The notes under the pieces were generated by a model. It had not been told where the DNA came from. It did no database searches and saw only the letters and a list, made by a program, of their open reading frames with translations. From Armatimonadota bacterium (lineage in GTDB: Bacteria > Vulcanimicrobiota > JACPDT01): 34,603 nt of DNA. Location of the stretch: positions 1 through 34,603 of the forward strand of contig JACPDT010000117.1 in the NCBI GenBank assembly GCA_016183865.1. The letters are read 5' to 3'. The translations under genes and the position numbers were made by a program. This document shows positions 8,601 to 17,694 of this stretch, piece by piece; positions within the stretch are counted from its first letter, which is position 1; each line of letters starts with the position of its first letter.

Positions 8601-8821
8601 GCGGAGCCGAGCGAAAGCGCGCCGGTTTTTTGATTCGTCGGGCTGCCATCACTCGCGATATCCCGCTGGTTACCACGATAACGGGCGCCCATGCCGTCAT
8701 TTCCGCCATGGAAGAGCACCGCAGGCGGCCCCTGAAGGTGAGGAGCCTGCAAGAATACCATGGATGCGCCACGGAGACGCAGAAAACACGGAAAGAATGC
8801 AAATTGACGCCGGATAGATGA
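5582..8821 (+). CDS. carB: Carbamoyl-phosphate synthase large subunit
   Basis: Makes carbamoyl phosphate from bicarbonate, ammonia and two ATP. The 1079 aa match the full-length family (about 1070). Two ATP-grasp halves are clear: the first opens with [20 protein letters not shown] and contains [10 protein letters not shown] and [12 protein letters not shown]; the second opens with [18 protein letters not shown] and contains [12 protein letters not shown] and [12 protein letters not shown]. The C-terminal MGS-like allosteric domain runs from about residue 930 ([18 protein letters not shown], then [12 protein letters not shown], then INTPSG). The start is TTG at 5582 with GAGGAGGTGA just upstream, inside the end of carA. 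Its stop overlaps the ATG of the next gene (ATGA), so that gene probably shares the transcript. Confidence 0.96.
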
Positions 8822-11547
8822 TGGAAGAACAGGCTCAGGCGATACCCGAGTTCCCACAGAAGTGCTCCCCCCTCGTAGTGAGCAAGCAGACCCAGGTGGG
8901 GGTTGTTTATTACATTGTCAAGAACCCTGCCTTTGAGCGCATTTTCAAGCTGAGGGAAGTTGAGTTCTTCATTCTCCAGCAGATGAATGGCCGCAACTCC
9001 CTTTCCGAGATACATCAGCGGGTGATTCGTGAGTTCGCGGATATCGAGATGACCCTTGAGGACATCTCCGATTTCACCGACACCCTCAGGGACAAAGGGC
9101 TCCTGGAAGGCCCGGGGCCTGGAGCTTCGGAAGGGCCCCCGTGGTGGAGCAAGGTGCTTTTCTGGCGGAAATCGGTCGTGAACCCGGACAGCCTGCTGGA
9201 CCGAATGGCGCCCTTCTTTGCCCCCACCTTTGAACGGAGGTTTGTCGTATCCGCCCTGGGGGTCATGTTTTTTTCACTTTACCTGTTTTTCAACCACCGC
9301 CAGGAGTACTTTGAGCAAAGCGAATCCATAATCAATGTCTGGGGATTCGTTCTATTCTATGTCCTCCTTGTAGTCACCGGTTTTGTCCACGAGTTCGGGC
9401 ATGCCATCTGTTGCAAGCATTTTGGCGGGAGGGTCACGGAAATCGGTTTTCTGATCATGTATTTTCAGCCCTGTTTCTATGCCAATGTGAATGACGCATG
9501 GCTTTTCCAGGAGAAGTACAAGAAGCTCTGGGTGGGGGTGGCCGGCCTCTATTTTGAGTTCATGTTGGGCGCTGCGGCAATCTTTGTCTGGTTGCTCACT
9601 TTTCCCGGGACTTTCCTGCACCACGTTGCTCACATCGTGATCGGCTGTACCGGCTTGTGGTCCCTCTTCAACCTGAATCCTCTCATCAAGCTGGACGGGT
9701 ATTATCTTCTGAGCGATGCCCTGGAGATTTCCAATCTCAGGGGGAAGTCCTTTGACTACATCCTTTCCCTCTTCAAGAAAAATGTGCTGGGCATTCAAGA
9801 CGAAACGGCTCTGGAAGAGGCGAAGATACGGTTCCGCAGGGAAGGCTCCGTCCTGGAAAGGAAACCGACAGGTTTTGCGACAAGAGCAAGAAGAGGGTAC
9901 ATACCGGTCGTAAGGAAGGAATACATTTCCCCGAGAGAGAAGAGGATTTACCTGTGGTACGGGGTTCTGGCCTTTGCATACACGGCGTTTTTTCTGACCG
10001 CTGCTCTCATCCTGTTCCTGAAGTTCCTTGTACGCCGTTTCCTGGGCCTGGGTTTCATCCTTTTTCTGGCAATTTTTTTCCTGTGGCTGGGCCGCCCGAT
10101 ATCCCAGGCCGTTCCGTATCTTTTCTTCTTGGCGGGAAGGTGGAAGCAATCGAGCATGATCGCTAAGCTGCGCTGGATAGTCGCCGGCATCGTCCTTTTC
10201 ATCATTCTCGGATCCCTCTTCTTGATCTATTTTCCCCTGGTCGTCCATGGAACGTGCAGAGTGGAGCCGTGGAACAAACAGGTTGTTTCCACCAAGGTCG
10301 GAGGCGTACTGGCGGAAGTAAGGGTAAGAGAAGGGGACAAAGTATCGGAGCATTCCGTTATCGGCTCACTGGAGAATGTGGATCTGAGAAACCGTCTCAA
10401 AGAGCTCAAGATCGAGGCACAGACACTAAGGGTCAAAGGGGACATCCTGACGAAGGAAAGCGAGCTGCTGAGGACACGGAAGGCTTCAGCCCTGAAGAAG
10501 GCGGAAGCGGAATACGAGCAGTCGCGCATCGCTCTCAGAGAGCATGCCGCAGTGGGTCCCCACCATGTGGCGGAACAGGAGCAGAAATTGGCTCAGGCCA
10601 CGGAGGTGCGCGCCCGGCTTCAGAGGGATCATGACAACTTGATTGCCGGCCGTCACCCTCCCGCCTTCCAGGCCATCTCGGAGCATATTGAGAAGAACAA
10701 GGTCGAGAGTTGGGCCGCCCTCCAGAAGTACCAGAGAACCAGTAAGCTTATGGAAGCCGGCGCGGTATCCGCCCAGGCTCTGGAGGAGGCTCGCTCGGCC
10801 TACGAGGCTCTGGAGCGTGAGGGGAAGAGCCTGAAAGAGGATTTCCTGGCGAAAAAGAAGGAGTTGGCGGAACATTTGCGGGAAGCCGTTGAGGAGGAGC
10901 GTTACTGGGAAGCGCGATATGCTTCCACCTCAAGGGAGAATCTGAGGAGCAAGCCTGCTGCCCTCCGGCAGGACATTCTGACCCGTGAGGCTCAGTATAC
11001 CCAGGCAAGAAAAGAAGAGGACGAAATCGCCTTGAAGAGCCAGGAGATCCGGCTCAATGAGCTGGCCCTGGAACACGCTACGCATCTCATGGATGCCACA
11101 GAGCAGAAACTGAGGGCCACGTATCTGGTTGCCCCCATCTCCGGCACAGTCATCACTCCCAAGGTTCATGAGAGGGTGGGAAAGTACTTCGGGAAAGGGG
11201 AGGAGATTTTCTGGATCAGCGACTCTTCCAAGGTTCTTATGGAAGTGGATGTCCAGGAGCGGGACCTCGAGGAGGTGGCAGTGGGAAATCAGGTCAGAGT
11301 GAAGGTCGTGGCCCTGCCCGGCGAGCTCTTCTCCGGCAAGGTCCTCCAGATCAGCCCCACCGCGACACAGGAGAAGCTCTTCAGTGTGGTCAGGGTAAAG
11401 ATCCTTGTTGATAACACAAGCGGCCATCTCCTTTTGGGCATGACAGGCACAGCCAAGCTCGACACCCGAAGGAGAAGCCTCGCATACATCCTGGGAAGAA
11501 GAGCCGCCAATTACCTGAGATACAACGTATGGTCGTGGTTCCCGTAG
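8818..11547 (+). CDS. PqqD-like / M50 zinc metallopeptidase / HlyD fusion membrane protein
   Basis: A 909-aa protein with three parts. Residues about 15-100 resemble a PqqD/RRE winged helix with winged-helix-like spacing ([16 protein letters not shown], then [14 protein letters not shown]). Residues about 140-440 form an intramembrane M50 metallopeptidase with HEFGHA (His191, Glu192, His195) and the second-metal motif [14 protein letters not shown] (Asp293), surrounded by several membrane helices. After a helix at about 455-475 comes a HlyD-type adaptor: lipoyl-like half ([20 protein letters not shown]), a coiled coil at about 520-760, the second half ([15 protein letters not shown]) and a beta-barrel tail. 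Related proteins process or export small peptides, often ribosomally made ones, by family knowledge. No radical SAM enzyme or ABC exporter is adjacent. It overlaps carB by 4 bp and ends 2 bp from a convergent gene, so there is no room for a terminator. Function is inferred. Confidence 0.85.
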
Positions 11548-11549
11548 CC

Positions 11550-13820
11550 CTACCCCAGGTCCCCTCGCTTCTGAGGCCAGTGCAGCTCGAGGATCAGGCT
11601 GTCTACAACGCGGCTCAGCGCCGCTACTACGTTTTCATCGAAATGGGTCCCCGCCAGTTTCTCCACCTCCATCAGGGCGACCTGCGGAGGGAGACCTTCC
11701 TTGTAAGGTCTTGCCGATACGAGGGCATCGAAGAAATCGGCCACGGCCAGAATCCTTGCTGTGAGGGGAATCTGTTCACCTGAGAGTCCGTCGGGGTAGC
11801 CGCGGCCGTCCAGCCGCTCGTGGTGATGGCGCACACAGGAATAGACTTCCTCCCAGAGGCTCTTGAATTTCTCGATGGCTTCAGACCCAAGTATCGTATG
11901 GGTCTTGATGATTTCGAACTCTTCGTCAGTGAGGCGTCCTTCCTTGAAGAGGATGCTGTCCTTGATCCCCAGTTTCCCGATATCGTGCAAGGCGGCGCCC
12001 AGGCTCAGAGTCTTCCTCTGGCGGGCCATGAGGTTCATTTCGCCGGCGATGGCCAGGGCTATCCTTGAGACCCTGCGCGTATGGCCGGTGGTGAATGTGT
12101 CTTTGGCTTCCATCGCGGTCATGAGAGCGGTGATAATGCTTTCAAATGCCTCTTCAAGGTGACGACGAAGCCAGACAAGCTCAAGGTTGATGTAGCTCTG
12201 CATGGCCAGCGTGGAAAAGACGGCAAGCTCGGATTCACTTTTTGGGATGAACTGTGTGACCTCAAGGGCTTCTTCGTACTCCGCTCTTGCCTTTTCGTAT
12301 TCTCCTTCCATTACATAGGATGCGCAGAGATTGAAGTGGCCGAACGCGCTCTCAGGGCTGAGCTCCGTTGTTCGCTTGTATTGTTCTATGGCTTCCCGTG
12401 GTCTCCCGAGGCGCGTATAAGCCGCGCCCAATTGATAGTGGGCGAAAGCATCGTTGGGATTGATTCGGATCGCAGCTTCGAAGTGTTTCGCGGCCTTCCA
12501 GACCTCCGAATCCTGATCGGGCTCGGCAAAAAGCATTGCCCCTCCTGATGAAGGGCGCATGGCTCTTCTCCGTTGATCCAGCTTCATGTAGGTAAGGCCC
12601 ATCTGAAAATGAGCCGAGGCGTCATTCGAGTTGATTTCGAGGCATTTGCCGAATGCCCGTTCCGCCAACTGGAGGTCCTCCGTCTCGGTGGAACGGGCGT
12701 AGAGAAGACCGAGATTATAACGGGCATAGAAATCCTTCGGATTGATCTCAAGGGAGGCGGTATATGCCTGAATGGCGTCGGAAACTCTGTCCGCCTGGGC
12801 GCAGGCACGCCCGAGATGGAAGTAAGTATACGGATCCGGCTTGACGGAAAGCGACTTCTCAAAGGATTCGATGGCCTCATTGGTCTTGCCGAGCCGGAGA
12901 TAAGTCATGCCAAGGTTGCACGAGGCCTCGGCAAAACGCGGGTTTATCTTCAATGCATCCTGATAATGTTTGACCGATGCATCGAGATTGAACTGCTGCT
13001 CATAGGCCACGGCAAGAAGGAAATGGTTCTCATCCGGATTGTGCCCGAGTCGGATCGCGTTCTGGTACGACTCGATGGCGAGTCCCCACTGGTTCTGCCG
13101 TGCATAGATCTTTCCCCTGGCACAATGGGCCTTGCCGAATCCCGGGTTTGCGGCGATAGCCCGTTCGTAAGCCCTGAGCGCCTGTATGAGCTTGTCCTGG
13201 TCTTGCTGGATCTGACCGATCCAGTAATGGGCATCCGAGGATTTCGGATCAAGCTCTATGCAGCGCTCCAGGTTCCTTATGGCGGAGTCGGGGTTGCCGC
13301 TGCGCCAATGGGCCAGACCAAGTCTCAAGAGAGCCTGCTTGAGCGACGGATTGAGCCGTATGCACTCCTCATAAATTTTCAGGGCTGAGGAGATGTCCAC
13401 GAGGATCTCCTCAGCAAAGGCCTGGTGAAAGAGGGCGATCGGATCGCCAGGGCGATGGGCCACCTGCTTTTCAAATTCCGCCAGAGCTTCCCTGATTCTT
13501 GCCCGATAGTCGAAGGGAACGTCATCGGTGTATGTGAAGTGTGCGGTTCGGACAGGACCCCGCTCCAATTGAAGGAACTGTTCCCATTCCTTGACTGCGA
13601 CATCCGTTTTCCCCAGTTGCGCATACAGAAGCCCTTTATGAAACAATACCTTGGACAGGCGGCTTTGAAGGCGGGCAGCCTTGTCATAGGCTTCCACGGC
13701 CCTCGAGAAATCTCCGGCCTCATGATAGGTTAATCCCAACTTGAATTGCGCTTCCACATCATTGGGATTGACACTGACCAGGACGGAATATTTCCTCAGG
13801 TATTTTTCCAGATCTTTCAT
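11550..13820 (-). CDS. TPR-array HD-GYP domain protein (probable cyclic-di-GMP phosphodiesterase)
   Basis: 756 aa, soluble. The N-terminal 520 or so residues are tetratricopeptide repeats (for example AHYQLGAAYTRLGRPREAIE, HFNLCASYVMEGEYEKARAE), roughly a dozen. The C-terminal HD-GYP domain starts at about residue 560: GHTRRV, HDIGK (His612, Asp613), HHERLDGRGYPDG (GYP at 674-676) and ILAVADFFDAL, all key metal and signature residues intact, so hydrolysis of cyclic-di-GMP is likely. There is no receiver or sensor domain; the TPRs probably supply the partner interaction. ATG at 13820 with a modest AGGGGT ribosome site. The gene follows a second HD-GYP gene by 53 bp on the same strand. Confidence 0.9.
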   Translation of the reverse strand: MKDLEKYLRKYSVLVSVNPNDVEAQFKLGLTYHEAGDFSRAVEAYDKAARLQSRLSKVLFHKGLLYAQLGKTDVAVKEWEQFLQLERGPVRTAHFTYTDDVPFDYRARIREALAEFEKQVAHRPGDPIALFHQAFAEEILVDISSALKIYEECIRLNPSLKQALLRLGLAHWRSGNPDSAIRNLERCIELDPKSSDAHYWIGQIQQDQDKLIQALRAYERAIAANPGFGKAHCARGKIYARQNQWGLAIESYQNAIRLGHNPDENHFLLAVAYEQQFNLDASVKHYQDALKINPRFAEASCNLGMTYLRLGKTNEAIESFEKSLSVKPDPYTYFHLGRACAQADRVSDAIQAYTASLEINPKDFYARYNLGLLYARSTETEDLQLAERAFGKCLEINSNDASAHFQMGLTYMKLDQRRRAMRPSSGGAMLFAEPDQDSEVWKAAKHFEAAIRINPNDAFAHYQLGAAYTRLGRPREAIEQYKRTTELSPESAFGHFNLCASYVMEGEYEKARAEYEEALEVTQFIPKSESELAVFSTLAMQSYINLELVWLRRHLEEAFESIITALMTAMEAKDTFTTGHTRRVSRIALAIAGEMNLMARQRKTLSLGAALHDIGKLGIKDSILFKEGRLTDEEFEIIKTHTILGSEAIEKFKSLWEEVYSCVRHHHERLDGRGYPDGLSGEQIPLTARILAVADFFDALVSARPYKEGLPPQVALMEVEKLAGTHFDENVVAALSRVVDSLILELHWPQKRGDLG

Positions 13821-13873: not shown

Positions 13874-15739
13874 TCAGGCAACGAGGAGGCAGCTTATGGG
13901 GACCCGGACCACGCTCCGAGCCTTTTCGAGGCGGCTCTCCCGGGGGTGATTTCCTTCTTTTGCTTCCAGGATCTCTGCGAGAACCTCCACGATTCCGGGG
14001 TCGAATTGGGCGCCGGATCGGTCTCGAATTGCCTCCAGCGCCATCGAGGGGCTGCAGGGGTTGCCGGCTTCCAGTCCGTTCACCAGCCACACAAAGGCGT
14101 CCGCCACGGCAAAAATACGGGCATCCAGCGGTATTCCCTCCCCCTCCTGGTGGAGGGGATACCCCTCCCCATTGTACCATTCGTGATGGCTCCTGATCAC
14201 ACAGGCCGCATCCTCTGCGATGGCTAAGAGTCCTACCGGATTCACGTCTATATGGTCTTTCATCTCCATTCGCACCCATGGATCGCAGAACTGCGAAGGG
14301 GCGATCCAGATTGAGGCAGGGGGGGTGAAGTGATGAGCCAGCGCCGCCTCCCGAAGATTGTCGCAGGTGCCCGGGGGGAGATCCATTCGGGATGCAATCT
14401 CAAGGGACAGGACCAGGATGTGACCGGCTGGAGAGTCCGGCGCCTGTTGGTCTTCCTCCTCCGGTCCGGCACTCAGAAGCTCGTCAGCCGGCAGCTCTTC
14501 CTCCAGATAGGAAATCAACGCAGCCGCCACTTCGGGATCGAATTGGGTCCCGGATGCCTGTGCCAATCGCCTGAGGGCTACCTTTCGATCCATGCCCTTC
14601 CGATAGGGGCGGTCACTGGTCATGGAGTCATAGGCATCGGCAACAGAAATGATTCTGGAACCCAGGGGGATCTGGTTCTCTTTGAGCGCAAAGGGATACC
14701 CTGTGCCGTCGTATTTCTCGTGATGGCAGTATGCAAGCTCCACGGCCACTCGAAAGGGGGGGAGGTTCTCCAGGAAAGTCTTCAAGGCCCCTACATGGGA
14801 ACGAACGAGAAGGCGCTCCTCACCCGAGATCCGGCCATCCTTGAAAAGAATGTCATCAGGAATCACCACATTCCCGATATCGTGAATCAGGGCTGCTCTA
14901 TAGATTTCCCTCGACTCCTGCTCATCAATCCCCATTTTTGTTGCGATTTGCTTCGCATAGATGGCCACCCGTTCCGAGTGCCCGAAAGTAATGGAATCAC
15001 GGGCTTCCAGAATCTTCAGGACAGCCTCCATCACGGCGGAGATTTCCTTGAAAACCTGGGCATGGGCCCAGTTGGATTTAAGAAGAACCAGGACAGGGAC
15101 TGCGAGCAGAAGAATCGCTCCAGGGGACCGCAAGAGGAAAGTGGTGATGGCCCCGAAAGATACCAGGATGAGATCCTCGGCATAACCGAAGGCGCAGGGG
15201 AACAACCGCGCCGCATCCCTGATTCGGATTCCGAAATCCAGGGAGCTTATCAGGATGCCGGTGGAGAGGGCGACCGTGCTCACTGTAGCACCGCAGAGGA
15301 CAAAGGCGATGAGGTTTTCCACTCCACCAGGTTGTGATGATGAATGGAAGAAAGTGTAAACCGCCGCCCCAGCGGAGAATTTCAACACATAATTGGATAC
15401 ATTGAAAAGTCCCACCCACCATCGGCTCCAATGGATGTAGCCACGACCAAGGAATATCAGGTTATGACACAAGGCAATCGTGAAAGCTCCCCAGGCGGCC
15501 CAGGAGAAAGGGAACAGGAAGATAGTGACATAAAGAAGGATATCGAATACATTAATCACAAGGTTCTTGGTGAAGACCAGCTCCATCGGTCGGAGCCCTG
15601 CGGTGATTCCGGCAGCCACCAGCAGGGTGAAAAAAGCGGTCTCCGTTGGATTTTGAAAAGACAGTGGGTGAAGGTAAAGCACCAGGGCCGTGCAGAGCCC
15701 CAGGCCGATCGGAAACAGTCTTTTCAGGATGTAATACAT
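13874..15739 (-). CDS. Membrane tandem HD-GYP protein with degenerate second domain
   Basis: 621 aa. Residues 1-220 hold about six to seven hydrophobic segments in a MASE-like sensor arrangement. HD-GYP 1 (about 235-415) has GHSERV, HDIGN (His286, Asp287; Lys of the usual HDIGK is Asn), HHEKYDGTGYP (GYP 347-349) and ISVADAYDSMTSDRPYR. HD-GYP 2 (about 435-590) keeps SHHEWYNGEGYP (518-528) and FAVADAF but has AHHF where HDIGK should be, so the HD pair is lost and it lacks the N-terminal GHS/T helix. The first domain is probably active on cyclic-di-GMP and the second regulatory. The ATG at 15739 fits the start of the first membrane helix. Confidence 0.88.
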   Translation of the reverse strand: MYYILKRLFPIGLGLCTALVLYLHPLSFQNPTETAFFTLLVAAGITAGLRPMELVFTKNLVINVFDILLYVTIFLFPFSWAAWGAFTIALCHNLIFLGRGYIHWSRWWVGLFNVSNYVLKFSAGAAVYTFFHSSSQPGGVENLIAFVLCGATVSTVALSTGILISSLDFGIRIRDAARLFPCAFGYAEDLILVSFGAITTFLLRSPGAILLLAVPVLVLLKSNWAHAQVFKEISAVMEAVLKILEARDSITFGHSERVAIYAKQIATKMGIDEQESREIYRAALIHDIGNVVIPDDILFKDGRISGEERLLVRSHVGALKTFLENLPPFRVAVELAYCHHEKYDGTGYPFALKENQIPLGSRIISVADAYDSMTSDRPYRKGMDRKVALRRLAQASGTQFDPEVAAALISYLEEELPADELLSAGPEEEDQQAPDSPAGHILVLSLEIASRMDLPPGTCDNLREAALAHHFTPPASIWIAPSQFCDPWVRMEMKDHIDVNPVGLLAIAEDAACVIRSHHEWYNGEGYPLHQEGEGIPLDARIFAVADAFVWLVNGLEAGNPCSPSMALEAIRDRSGAQFDPGIVEVLAEILEAKEGNHPRESRLEKARSVVRVPISCLLVA

Positions 15740-15769
15740 AGTCCTTGCCTCGTCCCCTGGCCCCTCTCA

Positions 15770-15907
15770 TACCCTCCTCTAGCTCCTCCCAGAGGGAGGA
15801 GAAATGGAGTAAGGATTGGGTACCCTCCTCTAACTCCTCCCAGAGGGAGGAGAAATGGAGTAAGGATTGGGTACCCTCCTCTAACTCCTCCCAGAGGGAG
15901 GAGAAAT
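15770..15907. repeat. Tandem REP-like hairpin repeat, about 2.7 copies of a 51-bp unit
   Basis: Units start at 15770, 15821 and 15872 (TACCCTCCTCTA...). Each has the palindrome CTCCTCCC-AGA-GGGAGGAG, an 8-bp stem with a 3-base loop. The spacer AAATGGAGTAAGGATTGGG is identical between units 1 and 2; the third unit breaks off after GGAGGAGAAAT. The array lies 30 bp upstream of the membrane HD-GYP start. A palindrome of the same design occurs inside mlaD at 27142-27160. Confidence 0.85.
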
Positions 15908-15991
15908 CAGGGAAAAATCCACATGGGAAAAGGGGAAGTTGTTGAGACTTCCCGCCAACTCAACGTTCTTTTGTAATACCGATGATCTTAC

Positions 15992-16141
15992 TTATCTATA
16001 GTAGTACCACCCATCATCTCCGCCATCGCTCGTCGGGACCGGCTTTGCCGGGACGACGCGGGTCTCCAGCTCCTCTACATAGAGCTTTTTGTGACCTTTG
16101 TGTGTTTTTTTGGTTTCCTTGTGTGTCCCCTTCCTCTCCAC
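15992..16141 (-). CDS. Candidate small lysine-rich peptide with LExRxxP-like motif
   Basis: The frame encodes a Lys/His-rich stretch (THKETKKTHKGHKK), then LYVEELETRVVPAKP, an acidic/glycine segment and a terminal WYYYR. The VEELETRVVP motif resembles the LEERxAP-type motif that I recall in short proteins of several uncultured bacteria; no function is known to me. I chose GTG at 16141 (49 aa). The open frame continues upstream to an ATG at 16279 (95 aa), but that part contains a large inverted repeat and looks non-coding. The best ribosome site, AAAAAGGAGG with ATG at 16173, lies one frame off, separated by a run of seven G, so a frameshift (biological or assembly) may hide the true start. 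Not a secure gene call. Confidence 0.4.
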   Translation of the reverse strand: MERKGTHKETKKTHKGHKKLYVEELETRVVPAKPVPTSDGGDDGWYYYR

Positions 16142-16197
16142 CTTCCTCCCCCCCTTCTTGAGCTTGCTTCCATTATACCTCCTTTTTCGTGAGGTGA

Positions 16198-16241
16198 CTA
16201 TTGGACAAAGGTTGAATTGATCTAGGACTTTGGTCCAATAG
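16198..16241. other. Inverted repeat upstream of the small peptide
   Basis: CTATTGGACAAAG (16198-16210) pairs with CTTTGGTCCAATAG (16228-16241) except for one bulged G, leaving a 17-base loop. On the minus strand it lies just before AAAAAGGAGG (16189-16180), so it would sit in the 5' leader of the small peptide mRNA and could be an operator or a leader RNA hairpin. Confidence 0.5.
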
Positions 16242-16304
16242 GCGGAATAGTTCCAGTGACTTATTTCATTCGTAGTCATTTTGATCTATAATAAGATGAA
16301 AGGC

Positions 16305-16326
16305 TCCCAAAAAGTTAACTTTGGGA
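16305..16326. other. Short palindrome in the divergent gap
   Basis: TCCCAAA (16305-16311) and TTTGGGA (16320-16326) flank an 8-base loop containing the GTTAAC palindrome. It lies between the divergent small peptide and subtilase genes. It could be an operator. There is no U-tract of terminator type. Confidence 0.3.
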
Positions 16327-16396
16327 CCGAACAAATGTAACAAAATTGAGTGATAATTAAGAATAAAGAGATTCTTGGGATTGAGGAGGAGTTTCC

Positions 16397-17694
16397 ATGA
16401 AAAGACGGAACCTTTCGGCCTTCTGCCTCCCGGCGGTCATACTCTTGCTTGCAACCCTTTGCGGGTGCGCGGGGGGCAGCGCGCCGGGGATCTCGGCAAT
16501 CCCGCAGCAGGATTCGCTCATTCCCTCATCCCGAGCAGCAGACGGGAGCGTCACCTACCTGGTTCTTGCCAAGCAGGGCAAATACGATAAGGTGAAATCC
16601 CAGGTCGCGGCAACCGGCGCCCGAATTGACCAGGAGATGCCGGAACTGGATGCTCTCACTGCGGCGTCCTCTGATCCGACTTTTGCCGCCACTCTCTCAT
16701 CCACGGCCGATGTGGACGGAGTGGCGGAAGATCAGGAGACATCCGCTCTTGATGAGACTTTTCTTCCTGTGGATGCCGGCACAGTGACTGCGACAGATCC
16801 CTCTTTCCCCACACCTCAGGACAGCCTCTATGGTCTCCAATGGGATATCCGGCGAATAGGCGGAACCTTGCAGAAAGCCTGGGCTGTGACAACCGGAAAT
16901 CACACGATTCGGGTGGCCGTTATGGACACAGGAATTCATGCGGAACACCCGGATCTTGCCCCGAATCTTCTGGTTTCCCTTTCCCGTAATTTCGTGACCA
17001 ACAGTCCGCCGCAGGACCCTGCCGATCTCAGTCTGCGGGATCTGGCCGGTCATGGGACATTTACGGCAAGCCAGATTGCAGGAGCTTTCGGCGGCGGGGA
17101 GATTGTGGGGATCGGTCCCGGACTTTCCGTTGTAAGCGTCAAGATGATCAATAAGAACGGCAGGCTTTGGTTCAGTTGGGCTCTCCCTGCCCTCTATTAC
17201 GCTGCTGCGAATCGCTTCGAAGTCATAAACATGAGCTGGTCAGGGGTCATAGATACTTCCACCCCGGAAACAATGGTCAGAGACTTACCGGAACAAAAAT
17301 TCGAAGGCTGCCGGCAGAGCTTCCAGAGGTCATGACCGTTTCGGCAACCACATACCAGGATCGCCTTGCCCCTTACAGCAATTACGGTGTCTCTACCATC
17401 GTCCTCTCCGCGCCTGGAGGCAGCCTCCCGCCGGGAGCGGATTCTTATCCCTATTTGTGCCCGGGCGCCTTCAGTCCTGATGCCGTTTCAGGGAAATTCT
17501 ATGCCTGGGCGGCAGGGACGAGCTTCTCCGCACCCAAAGTGTCAGGGACGGCAGGCCTGGTTCTTTCGCGGAACAGGATTGCCGTGTCCCAGTTGAAAGT
17601 CGTTCTCCAACAAACTTCAGAGGATTTGGGAAAATCGGGACGTGACGAAGAGTTCGGATTTGGTCTCGTGGATGCAAACAGGGCGGTGAGGTAA
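16397..17694 (+). pseudogene. Subtilisin-like (S8) serine protease lipoprotein, frameshifted
   Basis: The ATG at 16397 follows GAGGAGGAG and opens a signal peptide ending in LLATLCGC, a lipobox-like site. A propeptide-like region (to about residue 150) precedes the S8 domain: VAVMDTGIHAEHPDL (Asp177) and LAGHGTFTASQIAG (His219) in the first frame. INMSWSG is reached at about 17247, but the oxyanion-hole GNNG is read from 17266 in another frame, followed by LPEVMTVSATTY, the catalytic GTSFSAP (Ser codon 17521-17523) and the proper C terminus to 17694. Only about 7 codons separate NMSWSG from GNNG, where the family has about 25-35, so bases are missing as well as the frame. It is inactive unless the assembly is wrong. 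Downstream it abuts a convergent stop. Confidence 0.85.

Follow-up and report, generated by a model that had tools for sequence, protein, structure and literature searches.

We analyzed a 34,603-nt stretch of DNA (the window), which is contig C210 of a 4.4 Mb Armatimonadota assembly of 353 contigs, and found in it a member of a previously undescribed family of ten small peptides. In our reading, to which we assign a probability of about 0.68, a 49-aa precursor would be made from GTG 16141 without a frameshift, the RRE (PqqD-like) domain of the 8818–11547 product would bind its VEELETRVVP leader, the site-2 protease part of the same protein would cut after Pro, the HlyD part would export the core AKPVPTSDGGDDGWYYYR, and this core would act as an extracellular signal on the adjoining polytopic HD-GYP protein, changing c-di-GMP. 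The last step is the least certain. The predicted processing and export of the peptide are well supported, while signaling to the adjoining receptor-like protein is suggested by gene order, the repeated pairing of peptides and receptors, and a fixed [FWY]R end. Features are collected in Table 1.

Table 1 Features of the precursor gene, its promoter region and the associated protein genes in the window.
Feature	Position	Strand	Basis and remarks
RRE(PqqD)-site-2 protease(M50)-HlyD fusion, 909 aa	8818..11547	(+)	Domain matches and structure model; predicted leader-binding, cleaving and exporting protein
TPR-HD-GYP protein	11550..13820	(-)	53 nt past the receptor gene; probably co-transcribed
Putative receptor: polytopic N-terminal domain without Pfam match, then HD-GYP	13874..15739	(-)	Immediately downstream of the peptide gene, 252 nt away
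Precursor-peptide gene	15992..16141	(-)	49 aa, GTG start; family alignment, leave-one-out profile, paralogue starts, SD pairing
Conserved leader motif VEELETRVVP	16049..16078	(-)	Two E, R and P invariant in 23 aligned members
G7 tract (C7 on the plus strand)	16148..16154	(-)	Read as part of the RBS for GTG 16141, not as a slip site
Sigma-70-like promoter TAGTCA-17-TATAAT	16172..16200	(-)	10/12 matches; weak, 1 found vs 0.7 expected in shuffles; overlaps AAAAAGGAGG/ATG 16173
Imperfect inverted repeat, 15-nt arms	16198..16241	(.)	Upstream of the promoter; possible operator

Start site of the precursor gene and the G7 tract

The VEELETRVVP frame is open on the minus strand from 16285 down to the stop at 15992, and the C7 run lies where the initial annotation placed it. 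That annotation held that the frame lacked a good start and pointed to an ATG at 16173, preceded by AAAAAGGAGG and one frame off, whose own frame stops at 16075 after 32 aa; one G added to the tract would join the two into a 60-aa product by slippage, programmed frameshifting or an assembly indel. Reading the sequence gave the same 60-aa product, but a start within the frame does exist, as GTG 16141 has a strong SD tract upstream. Pairing between this AAGGGGG tract and the anti-SD reaches -10.6 kcal/mol and stops ~7–8 nt short of the start, and the AAGGGGAGG tracts of two paralogues pair at -10.5 kcal/mol with about equal spacing. GTG 16141, directly after AAGGGGGGGAGG, reads MERKG. Paralogues on another contig, C331, begin with MERKQ, MKRSH, MEKKC, and MEKKH (two with GTG), each a few bases past a GGGGAGG-like tract. 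Since paralogue starts and SD spacing match GTG 16141, this codon is best read as the start and the G-run as its ribosome-binding site, as in the paralogues, with no slip needed. The resulting product consists of the leader MERKGTHKETKKTHKGHKKLYVEELETRVVP followed by the predicted core.

We consider the 60-aa product very unlikely. Its ATG has a good and slightly stronger SD (-12.2 kcal/mol), and an adjoining gene split over two frames indicates that indels or decay exist nearby, but AAAAAGGAGG and the ATG overlap the TATAAT box. The C331 paralogues start past the tract, which is their SD, in the manner of GTG 16141; the initial annotation had itself regarded homologues with that start as speaking against its proposal. 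No paralogue carries an upstream extension like its MEASSRRGG, and a G7 tract is not unusual in the window, where G/C runs of at least 7 number 10 against ~5.9 expected. A homopolymer phase-variable gene was rejected because the tract precedes the homologous start and so lies outside the reading frame, and a start at ATG 16279 was rejected for want of an SD.

The split gene is a divergent subtilase (S8) at 16397–17335 and 17167–17694 on the plus strand, with an intervening segment missing (Pfam positions 3–123 and 152–288 are present); it is a pseudogene or the result of a deletion or an assembly error. Between the peptide and receptor genes, a 51-nt unit that includes the palindrome CTCCTCCCAGAGGGAGGAG occurs three times in tandem, at 15770–15922. 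Related pieces of this unit occur at 13 other places in the genome, so it is a dispersed repeat.

That the frame is a real small-peptide gene, as the initial annotation proposed, is supported by its paralogue family and by homologues in other phyla. A chance open frame without function has a negligible probability: the frame is short and the peptide had no match in Pfam or NCBIfam, but a profile built without it placed the frame at the top of all 1078 in the window (E = 3e-5 when scaled to 100,000 frames; next-best E = 38), and its conserved leader occurs in other phyla.

The peptide family and its link to an RRE-M50-HlyD protein

Peptide family. A search of the genome for homologous short ORFs with the same motif, which the initial annotation had suggested, was productive. 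The first search with the window frame found similar small frames on C331, and a motif scan, profile, and DNA pattern together gave ten members, seven of them on C331 and one each in the window, on C264, and on C321. They share the leader E-E-x-E-x-R-[IV]-x-P, which usually follows a lysine-rich N-terminus, and carry a variable tail of 6–34 aa that ends in [FWY]R in 10/10. When both were left out of the profile, the C264 and C321 members were recovered at E 0.035 and 0.028, and the members from two other genomes of the phylum, G005 and G009, were likewise recovered at E 7e-4 and 0.012, each first in its own stretch. The DNA pattern alone was not specific (11 matches vs 5 with the reversed pattern), and its match on C306 was dropped because the matched bases were unlike the family. 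Profile matches in G030, G036, G040, G055, and G069 were dropped as chance, lying inside long frames or overlapping unrelated genes; for G055 the rejection rests on its 363-aa frame length only. A scan of the contigs of named genomes with the peptide alignment confirmed no relatives.

Other loci in this genome hold RiPP-type enzymes. Beside the seven C331 precursors are two B12-dependent-type radical-SAM proteins (L006, 9456–11498 and 13420–14796, plus strand), one with a B12-binding domain and both weakly matching RiPP C-methyltransferases, and a SAM methyltransferase also adjoins; the C331 peptides may be modified by these enzymes. PqqD-radical-SAM/SPASM loci on C19 and C233 (L053, L054) are, as far as seen, unrelated to the peptide family.

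RRE-M50-HlyD protein. The gene for this fusion, on the plus strand, lies 4.4 kb from the window peptide, on the opposite strand. Its PqqD domain scored 30.2 bits (cut-off 23.4), and the protease motif HEFGH is conserved along with a second 12-residue motif. The best NCBIfam match was the daptide metalloprotease NF041824 (E 2.8e-54; 184.7 bits, below the cut-off of 300), with HlyD families next. At the level of the predicted structure, both RRE and S2P folds are shown. The model covers the first 430 residues (mean pLDDT 71.9; 11 aligned sequences), with low confidence at residues 1–9, 100–120, 210–229, and 330–368. Residues 8–99 resemble leader-bound RREs (TbiB1, Z 10.8, rmsd 2.6–2.9 Å, 83–84 aligned; PqqD, Z 8.5, rmsd 2.9, 87 aligned), and residues 121–406 resemble the site-2 protease RseP (Z 9.7, rmsd 4.5, 158 aligned) and the M. 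jannaschii S2P (Z 8.2, rmsd 3.8, 152 aligned). Foldseek alone also placed S2P and TbiB1/lasso B1 on top, at E 0.02–0.4. HlyD-type adaptors connect inner-membrane transporters with outer-membrane channels, and with such an adaptor fused to the protease, export would be the natural next step.

Link across genomes and phyla. Leader and protease are linked across genomes and phyla. Among 148 genomes of the phylum, RRE-M50 matches with E <1e-60 occurred only in G000, G004, G005, and G009, and leader-profile matches with E ≤3e-7 occurred in the same four; the next in any genome was at 0.003, and nine weak matches, one of them in G069, fell between 0.003 and 0.05. The chance of this four-of-four co-occurrence is 5e-8, or 2e-5 when counted as three genera among 70, figures that overstate the case because the leader profile (A7) had training members from each of the four positive genomes, two of these genomes (G005 and G009) belong to one genus, and the G004 peptide was noticed via its protease contig. 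An earlier, narrower leader profile at E 0.02 missed G004.

Scanning named genomes with the protease alignment yielded 31 loci. The peptide profile found motif peptides in nine of these, eight being among the 11 best protease matches (nothing below E 8 in the reversed control), and found none in the other 22, several of which are short contigs or distant relatives. The motif pattern gave 25 matches in the named loci against one each in reversed and complemented controls: 20 short peptides, two large proteins with the motif close to their N-terminus (L106, L108), and three inside unrelated frames (L100, L106, L117). Four peptides in Acidobacteria (L093) and five in Verrucomicrobia (L105) lie directly 5′ of the protease gene, one to four in each of five Zixibacteria loci (L096, L097, L098, L101, L102) directly 3′ of it, and two in Gemmatimonadetes (L114) ~4 kb upstream of it. 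A locus titled Armatimonadetes (L094) carries the same peptide as the G004 contig. By record title, short peptides with the leader motif span at least five phyla.

Two observations concern individual loci. The peptides at L093 4661–4930 (record title Acidobacteria) and L105 8292–8456 (record title Verrucomicrobia) have near-identical tails, GNPGNNNPPLNNTNNPGNEGTGGQVSTG, owing to recent transfer, mis-binning or strong constraint. Peptides of Bacteroidetes/Ignavibacteria (L120 5919–6131, L121 268–426, L123 7271–7387) carry a related motif, e.g. VEELEQRLEM (E 0.3–0.6), at loci that also hold an M50 relative; they are possibly another precursor family.

Comparison with known maturation systems

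Daptides are the nearest known system. The daptide paper describes MpaA precursors, an RRE-site-2 protease (MpaP), and a leader ELExMEAP, numbered with its Pro as residue -1 (PMC10036551). The present system similarly has an RRE fused N-terminally to a site-2 protease and several short precursors. Its leader, ELETRVVP in the window and ELExRIAP in the family, shares the E, L, E, and final Pro but not the M-E. By analogy with daptide cleavage, the cut in the window precursor is expected after VVP. Unlike daptides, where a C-terminal Thr is invariant, the own-genome members lack it and all ten end in [FWY]R, and a Fe-ADH-type decarboxylase, an aminotransferase, and an N-methyltransferase were absent among the Pfam-scanned window ORFs within 1290–23304. 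Also unlike daptides, an HlyD adaptor is fused on and receptor-like genes adjoin the peptides. Since the C-terminal Thr is absent and no daptide enzyme was found among these ORFs, the window system is not a daptide; it is related to the peptides matured by RRE/site-2 proteases, but has an export adaptor fused to the protease and, within this phylum, partners that resemble receptors.

Other resemblances were more distant. The epipeptide protease YydH/LiaK (NF058609) is an M50-type metalloprotease in RiPP maturation, but the match was weak (E 6e-13; score 49 vs a cut-off of 225). The ammosamide/lymphostin leader model (NF033737) weakly matched three of 12 family members (best E 0.045), and identity with that leader was rejected, as all scores fell below the 30-bit cut-off (13.5 bits at best in this genome). 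The ammosamide precursor receives Trp and Arg at its C-terminus during biosynthesis (PMC12424672), whereas here the C-terminal residues are genome-encoded. The LEPR-XLL domain (NF012209) has a similar acidic-Arg motif near the N-terminus, but belongs to very large proteins and has LLS instead of IAP, and none of 12 family members matched its model at E up to 10. Large LEPR-XLL-like proteins do lie within ~10 kb of RRE-M50-HlyD relatives, in Magnetococcales (L106 1–5136, minus strand; 28.7 bits) and Phycisphaerae (L108 1664–6427, plus strand; 14.6 bits, with a cut-off of 17), and it is possible that they are substrates of the same protease class.

Receptor-like neighbors and the role of the core

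A polytopic HD-GYP, GGDEF or SpoIIE gene lies directly downstream, on the same strand, of nine of the 13 peptides of the phylum, the other four being C331:1013, C331:667, C321, and G004. The order on one strand of C331 is peptide, peptide, GGDEF, peptide, GGDEF, peptide, peptide, SpoIIE, peptide. In the window, C264, G005, and G009 the gene that follows the peptide encodes a polytopic HD-GYP protein (the C264 HD-GYP motif was identified by eye). These putative receptors have 4–6 predicted hydrophobic segments and an input part without a Pfam domain, for which no solved relative was found by sequence. The C331 input domain is ~50% identical among members and is joined to different outputs (GGDEF or SpoIIE). 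The window input domain is related to that of G005/G009 (E 3e-7), and this group is probably related to that of C264 (E 1.4e-4, 53% probability). One input domain common to all receptors was not supported, with the C331 and window groups aligning at E 0.28 in hhalign. The receptor alignment (A3) thus joins two groups without detectable mutual homology, and because it was built from peptide-adjacent receptors, its ranking of those first is circular. No leader motif was found in the fetched stretches around five weaker own-genome A3 membrane proteins (C74, C189, C149, C220, C91) or in those of G001 and G017.

The most serious competitor to a signaling role is a precursor that is processed and exported in the same way but whose core serves as a bacteriocin, binds metal or a surface, or forms part of a matrix, the c-di-GMP neighbor only timing its production. 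We regard this as a substantial possibility, though clearly the less probable one. Motif peptides of the named loci adjoin the exporter gene, not such a receptor, and low-complexity Gly/Asn/Pro tails are frequent among the exporter-linked peptides of other phyla. Modified products could arise from the B12-type radical-SAM enzymes of C331. The closest relatives known, daptides, are hemolysins (PMC10036551). A signal is favored over these alternatives by the polytopic signaling protein, with three kinds of output, directly after 9/13 phylum members and by the [FWY]R end kept in all ten own-genome cores.

The gene could also be a translational leader peptide (uORF) whose translation regulates the downstream HD-GYP gene, the peptide itself not being the product. 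It does lie upstream on the same strand, with repeats in the 252-nt gap, but its amino acids are conserved across phyla, peptides occur as tandem pairs before one receptor and as one copy after the last receptor, some adjoin exporters without any such receptor gene, and 15700–16420 holds no terminator-like site. We therefore judge a uORF improbable and retain an exported signal as the preferred reading.

To our knowledge, peptide signaling via c-di-GMP receptors is not an established mode, and no paper on it was found, judged by title, in the open-licence literature. Searches of that literature for the leader motif strings returned nothing or papers concerning plants and fungi by title, and those for PqqD, M50, HlyD, and precursor peptide together, or for PqqD and HlyD in Planctomycetes, found nothing. 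Apart from the daptide paper, no open-licence paper on the present system was found by title.

As a broader and tentative model, which we consider rather doubtful in its full extent, a one-polypeptide machine that reads the leader, cleaves within the membrane, and acts as periplasmic adaptor would mature and export a set of [FWY]R peptides. Every peptide would have a polytopic receptor of its own, whose c-di-GMP (HD-GYP or GGDEF) or SpoIIE-phosphatase output is exchangeable, and the leader code, in its LEPR-XLL form, may also direct very large surface proteins to machines of this class. The leader motif joins RRE-site-2-protease maturation, known from daptides, with HlyD-type export and short peptides of multiple phyla, which were unlinked in the open-licence papers searched. 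It also provides a testable rule for unannotated genes of 20–70 aa, namely [VIL]ExLExR[IT][AS]P beside an RRE-M50-HlyD gene, and it may account for the recognition of the LEPR-XLL signal in very large surface proteins.
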